Origin: a bacterium
Lineage (GTDB): Bacteria; JAJVIF01; JAGGVT01
Assembly (NCBI GenBank): GCA_021157815.1
Contig: JAGGVT010000119.1
Coordinates: 1 to 9,987, forward strand
Reading direction: 5' to 3'
Length of the DNA: 9,987 bases
This document shows positions 3,111 to 6,846 of this stretch, piece after piece (positions within the stretch are counted from its first letter, which is position 1; each line of letters opens with the position of its first letter). A program made the position numbers and the translations under genes. Under the pieces are notes generated by a model. It was not told the DNA's origin. It saw only the letters and a list, made by a program, of their open reading frames with translations, and did no database searches.

Positions 3111-5639
3111 ATGCGTACTTTAGTTTGTTTGTCAATAGTTCTATTTGCACTTGCATTTACGGGTTGCTCAGGGGGAGGCGATAATGCCTTGATCCCAAAT
3201 CCGGCGGGTAATATCAATGCTGGTGATTTGGATTCGCTGCCTGTAATCGCGTTCGATGGCGAAAGCGCAATCGGTTTTCTCGGCGCGTATAATCTGGCTA
3301 TTTCACCTGACGGCGCCAATGCTGAATTGATTTCCATGCGCCATACAGCGGATGGTGAATCATATATTGTGTCGGGCGAGAATTTCTTTACGATTTCTCC
3401 CTGTCAGGACTGCCTGAGGATTGACAGCATCGCGCTGGATGAAAATGGCGATATCGTTCTCGGGATGCAGGTTAAGCATCCGTTTCCAAAGGGGAACACA
3501 TCGCAGCCGCCATCCGCGATAAACCGTCTCGACCTGGATGTTTTCGACCTGGCGCTGATTCTTTATCCGATTGAGAGGACAGCGGATACATACTCACTTA
3601 CCGGAATTGATGCCTATCCCGGTATTCTTGTCAATGCGGATGGATTCACGTGTGAACTGGCTGAGGTAATTGATGATGATGCAGCGCTGCCATATAAAAT
3701 CTGTTATGAGGATGCAAAAAACAACAGGTTCGAGATGGGGCTTGATTATCAGGATTTCAATGTGGTTCTCTCAACAGGTTCGAAATTGGTGTTCGATGTT
3801 TATCTGACAATGGGGTACGGCGCGAGCGCGAAGAAACCCCAAAGGCTTGAGCCGACATATTATGTTCCCGAGTTCAATCGAAAAGCCGCATGGAAAGTCG
3901 ATGTTACACCGCCTGAGGGCGATGATCCGCCGGAGATTGGGAATACATGGGACACTAATGATTTATTAACCGAGTACACTGTTACAATCGATATTTACGA
4001 CTGGAACCATGGCGCGACAATCTCACCTGATTTTCCAGACCCGGATAACACTGACCAGATAAGCGCATCGTCAGATATCGGAGAGGTTACAGTTGAGATT
4101 CCCGGCATGACCAGCGCCGCGGTTTTAGGCGTAACAACAGATACGACATCAAACGGCTGGGATGATCCGCTGACATACACGGCCGCAATCGCCAATGAAA
4201 ATGGGCTTGGCGGCGGAGAATATACCGGCCTTGTAAAAGTAACCGATTCACGAATTCCCGGAATGGTGCTTTTTGGCGGTGAATCCGATACTCTTGTGCA
4301 CACACCAGACGGCATACTTATTGAATGGAAAAACATGCCTGAGTACGCGACATACCAAACATTCACCGCGACAGTTATTCATCTCTGCGGCCCGATTACC
4401 GGAGAGATTCTAAGCGGATGCCCGTCTGAGGGAATTGTCCACGGCGATACCCTTGATTTCACGGTAGCAGCCACGAGCGATAACGGCGGCAATGTTGTTC
4501 TTTATGAAGTTGATTTTGATTATGACGGTTTCGATTTCATTCCTGATCCGAATTTCCCGAACAACACTGACGGCATTTTCGATGATGTTGGGCCTTTTAA
4601 TGTGCCCGACCCGTGCGAAAGCAATATACCTTATGATTTCACAGTAGCGTTCCGCGCAACGGATGATTGCGTTCCTCCGAATGAAACAATATTCGATGAA
4701 TGTGTTGTAACGGTTGACGTTTGCGAGCAAACCGCGTTGATTTATTCTGTTACTTATGTCGAAAAACCATCTGAAGATACATGGGTTGATATCTGTGTAA
4801 TGCCTGATGGGCCTGTTTATATCGCCGCTGACCATCCCGCGACAGGGAATGTCGGAAGCATGAGGACAGCTATTCGCTTTGACAATGATTTAACAAACAT
4901 GACTGTTCTAAACGAGGGGTGGGGAATAAATGAGGACAGGCCAAATGTATTCGATAAACTGGATGTTTCAGATGGCGGTTATATCCTTAATAATCCCAAC
5001 AGAGATACTCAGGCGCTATGGTCTGACCCCGGCGGCAGTTCATTTACGCTGATTCATGTCTATGGAATAACATTCTGCGGTGGCCACTATTTTGAGGATG
5101 TTTGGGATGTGAATGAAGTTGCTGATAACCATTTATGTAATTACTGGAAAGCGATTGGGTGCATGCAGGCAAATTGCACTTATGTATGGCACGACTCCAA
5201 TCCGACTGACCCAAATCTTGGTGGCATGGCTTATGGTCCGACTCTTTATGACTACTTCGAAGTAGTCGGAATTGACGGTCCCGGAACAGCCATATTTTTC
5301 ATCTCAACTGATGCCAAGGGATACCTGTCGAAATCCGGTGACTGGGTGCCCTCTCATTCATCTCCGATTGAAATAGCAACAACCGGTACACTTGGCACCG
5401 CGGATGGTGAATTCACCGGCGGTCTTGATGTTACCTGCGATTCTGACAACAATATCGTGACACTGGAGGATCACGGCTCAGGTGTTTACAGATTCCAGAA
5501 ATTCGATTATGACCTAACATGGATATATACATCAGAGTGGATAGATGATGGTGATCCGATGCGGATGGATTTCGACACGGCTGATGATTACATGGTGCTG
5601 ATTTCGACTACAGGCGTGCATATTATGTTTGTGACGTAG
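3111..5639 (+). CDS. Large secreted lipoprotein with PKD-like and NHL-like segments
   Basis: The 842-residue product starts with a short basic end, a hydrophobic stretch and a lipobox FTGC with C19 as the predicted lipidated cysteine, then a glycine-rich linker. It should be exported and anchored to a membrane, probably facing outward. Residues about 40-420 look like beta-rich extracellular domains that I cannot assign. Residues about 425-540 include YEVDFDYDGFDF and DFTVAFRATDDC, resembling PKD or Ig-like repeats with paired cysteines. The C-terminal 300 residues look like a propeller: GTADGEFTGGLDV and YRFQKFDYDLTWIY near the end match the pattern of an NHL repeat. There is no recognisable catalytic site, sorting tail or transmembrane segment after the lipobox. 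The start is fixed by TGGAGG (3098-3103), 7 nt before the ATG. It is followed by a repeat and a strong terminator, so it is probably a single-gene transcript. Function is unknown; adhesion or ligand binding at the surface is a guess. Confidence 0.85.
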   Translation: MRTLVCLSIVLFALAFTGCSGGGDNALIPNPAGNINAGDLDSLPVIAFDGESAIGFLGAYNLAISPDGANAELISMRHTADGESYIVSGENFFTISPCQDCLRIDSIALDENGDIVLGMQVKHPFPKGNTSQPPSAINRLDLDVFDLALILYPIERTADTYSLTGIDAYPGILVNADGFTCELAEVIDDDAALPYKICYEDAKNNRFEMGLDYQDFNVVLSTGSKLVFDVYLTMGYGASAKKPQRLEPTYYVPEFNRKAAWKVDVTPPEGDDPPEIGNTWDTNDLLTEYTVTIDIYDWNHGATISPDFPDPDNTDQISASSDIGEVTVEIPGMTSAAVLGVTTDTTSNGWDDPLTYTAAIANENGLGGGEYTGLVKVTDSRIPGMVLFGGESDTLVHTPDGILIEWKNMPEYATYQTFTATVIHLCGPITGEILSGCPSEGIVHGDTLDFTVAATSDNGGNVVLYEVDFDYDGFDFIPDPNFPNNTDGIFDDVGPFNVPDPCESNIPYDFTVAFRATDDCVPPNETIFDECVVTVDVCEQTALIYSVTYVEKPSEDTWVDICVMPDGPVYIAADHPATGNVGSMRTAIRFDNDLTNMTVLNEGWGINEDRPNVFDKLDVSDGGYILNNPNRDTQALWSDPGGSSFTLIHVYGITFCGGHYFEDVWDVNEVADNHLCNYWKAIGCMQANCTYVWHDSNPTDPNLGGMAYGPTLYDYFEVVGIDGPGTAIFFISTDAKGYLSKSGDWVPSHSSPIEIATTGTLGTADGEFTGGLDVTCDSDNNIVTLEDHGSGVYRFQKFDYDLTWIYTSEWIDDGDPMRMDFDTADDYMVLISTTGVHIMFVT

Positions 5640-5697
5640 GCGCTCATGTAAAAAGGCGTAAACGCCTTTCGCGCCAGATGAAATCCAGCGCTCCCAG
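5639..5697. repeat. REP-like compound hairpin repeat, copy A
   Basis: Begins on the last base of the lipoprotein stop codon. The outer arms GGCGC (5639-5643) and GCGCC (5671-5675) enclose a perfect inner hairpin AAAGGCGT (5652-5659)/ACGCCTTT (5662-5669). A tail, TCCAGCGCTCCCAG (5684-5697), recurs exactly at 8569-8582. Copy B at 8485-8582 shares this tail, the GCGCTCATG motif and the AAAGGCGT/ACGCCTTT hairpin. Confidence 0.75.
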
Positions 5698-5723
5698 GGA
5701 ATGTTAATATACCAACATGAATA

Positions 5724-5759
5724 AAAATCCCCCAAATAACGGGGGATTTTGTTTTTTTT
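5724..5759 (+). terminator. Strong intrinsic terminator of the lipoprotein gene
   Basis: Perfect 10-bp stem AAAATCCCCC (5724-5733)/GGGGGATTTT (5741-5750) with loop AAATAAC, followed by G and eight T residues (5752-5759). The adenines before the stem would give some function on the other strand as well. It lies about 85 bp after the lipoprotein stop codon. Confidence 0.9.
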
Positions 5760-5819
5760 GAAGCAGCATTGCAGTTGTTCAAAGCACCATATCGACTCTT
5801 CAAAACACCATGCCTCTTA

Positions 5820-6046
5820 GCACCATGCTAAAGCATGGTGTTAATTAAAACCGGTTAAAACCAAATATCACATCGGGTGCCGCCCACACATCACGTCTTT
5901 TTGTGATTTGTGGGTGAAATGCGTAACTTCGCTGCATATCACCCATAAAGCCGGGACGGCTGTATGGGTCCCTCGACAAACTCTGGATCTACGAGCGGCA
6001 CTAGGCTTTAGCCTCTCCATCATAACACCATGCTTTAGCATGGTGC
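5820..6046. repeat. Composite palindromic element bounded by identical inverted hairpins
   Basis: The 24-bp sequences at 5820-5843 and 6023-6046 are exact inverted copies of each other. Each is itself a hairpin: CACCATGCT and AGCATGGTG with a two-base loop (5821-5840 and 6026-6045). The 179 bp between them hold a structured core (5877-6001), a short GGTT-AA-AACC hairpin at about 5853-5862 and AGGCT-TT-AGCCT at 6003-6014. Partial copies of the end motif (GCACCAT at 5784-5790, ACACCATGC at 5805-5813) lie just outside on the left. There is no believable gene inside. It resembles a MITE or a REPIN-like pair of REP hairpins; which of these cannot be decided from one copy. Confidence 0.6.
5877..6001. 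repeat. Cloverleaf-like structured core (three stem-loops inside a closing stem)
   Basis: A closing stem GTGCCGC (5877-5883)/GCGGCAC (5995-6001) encloses three consecutive stem-loops that abut at shared GGG/CCC runs. They are 5883-5894 with 5903-5914 (11 of 12 pairs), 5912-5922 with 5934-5944 (10 of 11 pairs), and ACCCATA (5941-5947) with TATGGGT (5963-5969), extended by AGCC/GGCT. The regular layout could be an RNA structure or a DNA cruciform of a mobile repeat. It is not a tRNA: arm lengths are wrong and there is no T-loop motif. Confidence 0.5.
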
Positions 6047-6051
6047 TTTTT

Positions 6052-6846
6052 CTATAAACCTTGCAAGAGACGCTCTCGAAGAGATTCGGGGAGTTTGGCT
6101 TCCTCCATCTGCTCGACTGTTTTTTCGATATTGTAATCGGTTCTAAACCATCGGATTGAATGTTCCGCCATGTCATACATGACGAGAGAAAGGCGTTCAT
6201 CGCCATCGCGAGGCTGTCCGATTGAACCGACGTTTACAATGTATCGCTGGTCAGGCTCAAGGAGAATTGGTTTATCCCATCCGAAATATTTTTTTAAGTC
6301 ATCGGCGGTGTAGTAATGCGGATGCCCTTTGGCATCGACAGCCGCCATTGCCGGTTTGTGAGTGTGCCCTGTAAATGTAACGCTGACATTCTCGGAAATC
6401 CCGCCAAACGCAGTTAATGTATCATCCTTGCTTTCAACATAACCATCGGAAACACCCGGAGCATAGTGAGTGAATGCGATAGTGTTTCCGGTTTTGGGAA
6501 TTGTAATTGTCTGGTTGGGAGGCAGGCCTGTAAGCCAGTTTAAATCATCCTCACCGAGAACTTTTTTCGTGTACTCGATAACCTCAAGCGCTTTTGGATT
6601 AACACGGCGCTTGTCGAAATCGCCCTGAAGATAACTCTCATGGTTGCCTGAGAGACATACTCCGAAAGTCCTGGCGATATCCACACATTCCTTTGGCTTG
6701 GGGCCATAACCGATTACATCGCCAAGGCAAACCATCTTTCGCGGGTTTTCCATCCCCTGCACTTTCAAGTATTCGAGCGCCCGATTGAGCGCCACAATGT
6801 TAGAGTGAATGTCGCTCATAATCACAAGACAACTTTTTTTATCCAC
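6052..6846 (-). CDS. Calcineurin-like metallophosphoesterase
   Basis: The 264-residue product has the full metallophosphoesterase signature: SDIHSN (D12, H14), GDVIGYGP (D43), GNHE (N68, H69), THYAP (H127) and GHTH (H161, H163), all expected to hold two metal ions in the active site. NVGSIGQPRDGD (205-216) is the C-terminal block typical of the small ApaH/YfcE-like branch. It should hydrolyse a phosphoester; candidates are phosphodiesters, nucleotides or phosphoproteins, and the substrate cannot be read from the sequence. There is no signal peptide, so it is likely cytoplasmic. The start is a GTG (6844-6846 on the plus strand reads CAC), supported by GAGG (6856-6859), 9 nt upstream. It is divergent from the solute-binding protein gene and probably monocistronic. 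Downstream lies a palindromic repeat; no terminator with a T-run in its own direction is evident. Confidence 0.92.
   Translation of the reverse strand: MDKKSCLVIMSDIHSNIVALNRALEYLKVQGMENPRKMVCLGDVIGYGPKPKECVDIARTFGVCLSGNHESYLQGDFDKRRVNPKALEVIEYTKKVLGEDDLNWLTGLPPNQTITIPKTGNTIAFTHYAPGVSDGYVESKDDTLTAFGGISENVSVTFTGHTHKPAMAAVDAKGHPHYYTADDLKKYFGWDKPILLEPDQRYIVNVGSIGQPRDGDERLSLVMYDMAEHSIRWFRTDYNIEKTVEQMEEAKLPESLRERLLQGL

Follow-up and report, generated by a model that had tools for sequence, protein, structure and literature searches.

REPINs, described by Bertels and Rainey (2011; PMC3116915), consist of two REPs that face each other across a spacer. They lie in extragenic DNA, show compensatory changes in their hairpins and are linked to a RAYT gene. 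In Pseudomonas the doublet is the mobile unit, and singlets are decayed remnants (PMC3116915). The same paper puts forward a clover-shaped fold that a RAYT dimer would recognise, the long hairpin being a poor substrate (PMC3116915, Fig. S11). In REPtrons one cognate gene lies between a REP and an inverted REP with a GTAG or GTGG head, and its protein carries HUH, WQ and YIHNNP motifs (PMC8266576, PMC6006769). In vitro, an E. coli enzyme of the RAYT kind can cleave single-stranded REPs and rejoin them (PMC8266576). Subclasses 2.6 and 3 are known to have atypical REP feet (PMC6006769), and TnpAREP subclass 2.6 (group 5), found mostly in Bacteroidetes, is flanked by 'atypical secondary structures' (PMC8266576, PMC6006769). 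REP dimers situated in or beside other palindromes were reported in PMC3733652, as were dimers of unlike REPs. Elements of the IS200/IS605 type likewise combine an HUH/Y1 enzyme with subterminal hairpins in single-stranded DNA. The repeat family described below has features in common with each of these systems and differs from each in others.

The window, a 9,987-nucleotide stretch of DNA, contains such a structure at 5874-6001. This core is in all likelihood a REPIN, a miniature element that is non-autonomous and would be moved in trans by the RAYT whose gene lies on contig C84 of the same genome. It starts on the plus strand with the head of the left REP (CGGGTGCCG, 5874-5882), which also serves as the 5' strand of the closing stem and is present in nearly all copies. 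The left REP hairpin follows as arm 1 (CCCACACATCACGTCTTTTTGTGATTTGTGGG, 5883-5914, plus strand), and then arm 2, a linker stem-loop joining the two REPs (5915-5941, plus strand). Arm 3 (5942-5968, minus strand) is the hairpin of the right REP, inverted and diverged, and arm 4 (5969-5995, minus strand, where it reads CTCGTAGATCCAGAGTTTGTCGAGGGA) is a stem-loop of a second REP type inserted beside the head. A remnant of the inverted right head (CGGCAC, 5996-6001, minus strand) provides the 3' side of the closing stem; it is degenerate here, the canonical form being CGGCACCCG. The canonical order of the core is CGGGTGCCG, arm 1 (CCCACACATCACGTCTTTTTGTGATTTGTGGG), arm 2, arm 3 (CCCATAAAGCCGAGACGGCTGTATGGG) and CGGCACCCG. 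The first-pass annotation had correctly located the closing stem, as 5877-5883 (GTGCCGC) is the exact reverse complement of 5995-6001 (GCGGCAC). It had placed three stem-loops inside this stem; there are four, the fourth (5969-5995) being a variable extra.

The left REP and the reverse complement of the right REP could be aligned over their full length with a score of 22, while shuffled sequences reached a maximum of 6.5. Judged by this alignment, the core is composed of two homologous, diverged REPs that face each other in inverted orientation and each form a separate hairpin, and of a third arm that lies between the two. In this it departs from the REPINs of PMC3116915, because here the left and right REP clearly differ and each retains its own hairpin. 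The REP dimer families of PMC3733652 carry GTAG or CGTC tags, and their sequences differ from the core.

The genome from which the window derives (G000, 3.2 Mb in 221 contigs) is a fragmented draft, and copy numbers given for it are lower bounds. Core alignments were built from matches to a model based on the closest copies. The core was found to belong to a genome-wide family of about 62-63 full and about 25-26 half copies. A search with the 227-bp block between the outer hairpins recovered the part 5873-5968 in at least 40 copies, and a covariance model made from 36 copies gave 132 matches on both strands, with 150 of 1255 candidates scored. The 32 bp of arm 1 occurred in at least 93 copies, 74 of them exact, and had 0 matches in the control. 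The head motif CGGGTGCCGCCC was found 54 times in forward and 53 times in reverse orientation, compared with 0 and 1 in the control. The foot of the hairpin was GGGTGCCG in nearly all copies; the tetranucleotide GT[AG]G of canonical REPs was absent from the 5' foot. Open reading frames of at least 120 amino acids contained only 4 of 80 REPs, whereas 971 of 1428 random positions fell inside them. Target duplications could not be recognised at the copies; they are not expected for enzymes of the IS200/IS605 type. The exact arm pattern had 0 matches in the contigs of the named genomes. The IMG/VR contig at L078 matches the core but represents the same locus as C167 of G000, and hence no independent copy.

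The Y1_Tnp profile had nine matches in G000, and the C84 gene was the one scanned against NCBIfam. Its product matched NF047646 (REP-associated tyrosine transposase) with 92.9 bits (cut-off 80) and PF01797 with 33.3 bits (cut-off 23); no solved structure matched it by sequence. The protein comprises 179 amino acids counted from the first matched residue and contains the motifs EHVH, WQ and YIHNNP. On either side of the gene lies an exact 49-nt copy of the left REP, comprising head, arm 1 and tail, the two copies being inverted. Six relatives of this RAYT, with identities of 46-60%, were found in G001 and G003, genomes of the same class and of another family. Five of the six (L170, L171, L173, L176 and L178) had clear adjoining inverted repeats, whose heads were GGGTGCC-like and whose stems differed from gene to gene. 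At L181, the sixth, REP-like structures adjoin the gene, among which an exact inverted pair could not be detected. Complete REPIN-like pairs were present in G001 at L147 and L148. A protein scan of the named relatives for RAYTs confirmed none.

Given the left REPs that flank the C84 gene and the similar pairs in its relatives, the family is a REPIN/RAYT (REPtron) system. It differs from the described REPtrons (PMC8266576, PMC6006769) in its head, which is GGGTGCC(G) instead of GTAG or GTGG. The RAYT motifs overall (E/DHVH or EHFH, WQ and YIHNNP, with an HUH-to-Y spacing of about 76) resemble those of TnpAREP subclass 2.6 or 2.4 of PMC6006769, subclass 2.6 (group 5) being the nearest, an assignment made by reading motifs and not from a tree. 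In contrast to IS200/IS605 elements, the C84 gene occurs only once although there are many copies of its repeats, and its protein reached 32.2 bits, below the IS200 cut-off of 55. A second Y1 gene of G000, at L174 (C182, about 9.5-10 kb), is flanked by inverted ATGTAACCCGGCATCCCCTTGCCGGGG, a motif that recurs in the fetched loci; together they probably constitute a second, independent REP/RAYT system.

We infer binding, cleavage and transposition by the RAYT, with the cloverleaf as the active form, as follows. In single-stranded DNA each REP would fold its own hairpin beside a GGGTGCC(G) head, and the paired heads would close the cloverleaf. The RAYT, a putative single-strand nuclease of the HUH/Y1 type, would recognise arm 1 and head as its cognate REP, bind there, cut the strand and join it elsewhere. 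No excision or insertion event was seen in the draft genome.

When the core (5874-6002) was folded as single-stranded DNA, an outer stem with four stem-loops, hence a cloverleaf, was predicted (z = -4.5, 0 of 200 shuffles). Because the two REPs differ enough, this prediction favours the clover form directly. Over 61 copies, 96.2% of the cells were paired, compared with 31.6-46.3% when the partners were slid. Changes on both sides of a pair were counted in 20 cells of the same 61 copies, distributed over 6 pairs, against a shuffled mean of 4.6; 12 of these 20 cells sit in one pair and may represent a single inherited event. Examples are ATCGC/GCGAT in L095, CCCATA/TATGGG in L083 and, in several copies, GCCCGGAGGGC replacing GCCGAGACGGC; arm 3 is among the arms with compensatory pairs.

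Compensatory changes had been proposed at the outset as support for an RNA. They were indeed found and argue for a conserved structure, but an RNA does not follow from them, since the same constraint is expected to act on REP hairpins that are recognised as single-stranded DNA. The cores have no clear strand bias relative to co-directional genes (19 in the same and 11 in the opposite orientation). A transcribed regulatory or small RNA family with a conserved cloverleaf, linked only incidentally to the RAYT, would also account for the extragenic position of the cores and for their stability when folded as RNA (z = -4.1), with the RNA model preferring mixed pairing. This explanation is nevertheless very improbable, as it does not fit the left REPs that flank the RAYT gene in inverted orientation, the half copies in which arm 1 alone is conserved, or the inversion of arm 2 in some copies. 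Nor does any Rfam family correspond to the core. A scan of 5400-6400 gave nothing near a gathering score, only chance matches, and none of these lay inside the core.

The core places in the fetched loci comprise 63 doublets and 26 copies without a recognisable arm 3. Among the latter are the two RAYT-flanking REPs, a contig end, a diverged copy and some copies with internal deletions, which leaves about 20 true singlets. Arm 1 was exact in 19 of the 26 half copies and in 51 of the 63 doublets. The half copies are therefore as conserved as the doublets and appear undecayed, in contrast to the decayed singlets of PMC3116915. This counts against the REPIN reading, under which singlets should decay if the pair alone is mobile. 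Two further differences from those REPINs were noted. The linker arm is inverted in about 10 copies; of 60 copies in which arm 2 could be read, 10 had it reverse-complemented within its stem. Among these L089 is a weak case, and the same form was seen in L103. Some copies also carry a fourth arm of REP type. This second REP type, CTCGTAGATCC(C)GAGTTTATCGAGGGA, is joined beside the head, on the arm-1 side in L101 and L103 and on the arm-3 side in the window copy and in L010; L131 has it with a GGGTGCCG head and without arm 1. In L092 and L102 another stable hairpin, CGCGAAGCG, takes the place of the arm-1 loop, and the outer stem is retained.

Many doublets are embedded in larger repeats of two kinds, each bounded by terminal inverted repeats: context A (CTCGACTTTCGACATTT) and context B (AGAGCCTGTCGGGAAAG). 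Context A, seen in L012, L024, L025 and L026, is MITE-like with 17-bp ends; in L024 a possible 5-bp duplication (AGGAT) was observed, and the context A element seems to lie inside yet another repeat. Context B is also MITE-like and carries a REPIN; it is nested in the middle of palindromes of the H family described below, or in the middle of a second palindrome, AGCAGAGGGTTTTAACCCTCTGCT, in L013, L014, L030, L042, L044 and others. Long short-tandem runs of the GTTAGCAGGTTAGTAAGTTAGC type adjoin REPs in L021, L027, L036 and L037.

The frequency of these contexts would be explained if the cores were parts of ordinary MITEs with terminal inverted repeats, spread inside A and B by cut-and-paste of a DDE transposase. 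We regard this as about as improbable as the RNA explanation. One and the same core is found within A, within B, next to H palindromes and by itself, with unrelated flanks, and arm 1 is better conserved than the MITE flanks. Such MITEs should have fixed ends and duplications everywhere, but by inspection no consistent duplication was found at the core boundary. The linkage between the REPs and the RAYT is likewise left without explanation. A and B flanks are even mixed around one core, that of L028, which has a B-type flank on the left and an A-type flank on the right; this suggests exchange through the core. The MITEs of contexts A and B may have carried some cores as passengers.

The outer hairpins do not belong to the REPIN. 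Their 25-nt arms at 5819-5843 (AGCACCATGCTAAAGCATGGTGTTA) and 6023-6047, the latter in opposite orientation and with a T run after it, match as reverse complements at 100%. Each also folds into a hairpin by itself, as had been claimed. The regular folding noticed in the first-pass annotation was also reproduced: the predicted folding energy of the 227 nt is -101.8 kcal/mol (z = -9.1), equalled by 0 of 200 shuffles, and a large share of this energy is contributed by the long outer inverted repeat. Both hairpins are members of a genome-wide palindrome family, H (AACACCATGCTTTAGCATGGTGCT), whose centre, TTTA/TAAA, is A+T-rich. With up to 3 mismatches allowed, the family had 67 forward and 65 reverse matches in G000, the pattern being self-complementary, and 0 in the control. 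Among 54 listed H palindromes, 25 had an arm-1 copy no more than 200 nt away, against an expectation of 0.6 for a uniform distribution and of about 4 if both families are confined to 15% of the genome. The outer hairpins are an independent palindrome family near which REPs are unusually frequent. Of the initial guesses of a transposon, a REPIN or a structured RNA, the REPIN stands, for the core only.

Between the left hairpin and the core lies a spacer (5844-5873), of which a diverged version is present at other loci where H is followed by a left REP (L009, L019 and partly L116). With the 227 nt as query, this region was matched by C23 over 1-149 at 88% and by C206 over 2-104 at 93%. The H hairpins were also considered as the REP of another RAYT, but none was found near the eight Y1 genes, and as intrinsic terminators, but a T run follows some copies only. 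No transposase was found beside the H palindromes. A single transposon that spans all 227 bp, both hairpins included, has been largely refuted and is scarcely credible, because no second full-length copy was present in G000 (the best match covered 149 of 227 nt at 88%): the exact 25-nt inverted ends, the enrichment of H near REPs and the recurrence, in diverged form, of hairpin, spacer and left REP speak for it, but both ends enclose the whole at one place only, H stands by itself in many places and there are REPs that lack it, so that the 227 bp are a composite.

The REPIN family provides natural variants that bear on how REPINs are copied. As each REP has its own hairpin and the two REPs have diverged, the cloverleaf can be distinguished from a simple long hairpin. 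Copies with an arm inverted in place, copies with an added foreign REP arm and half copies that are seemingly undecayed are useful for this question. The gene-repeat pairs of the same class, with a common head and different stems, make recognition rules testable outside the GT[AG]G groups. We consider it possible, although rather doubtful, that the pairs represent a RAYT/REP branch of an uncultured class, in which a GGGTGCC head replaces GT[AG]G, cloverleaf REPINs are modular with invertible and addable arms, and single REPs are mobile. If this were true, REPs would be copied via a folded single-stranded junction and not via a simple long hairpin.
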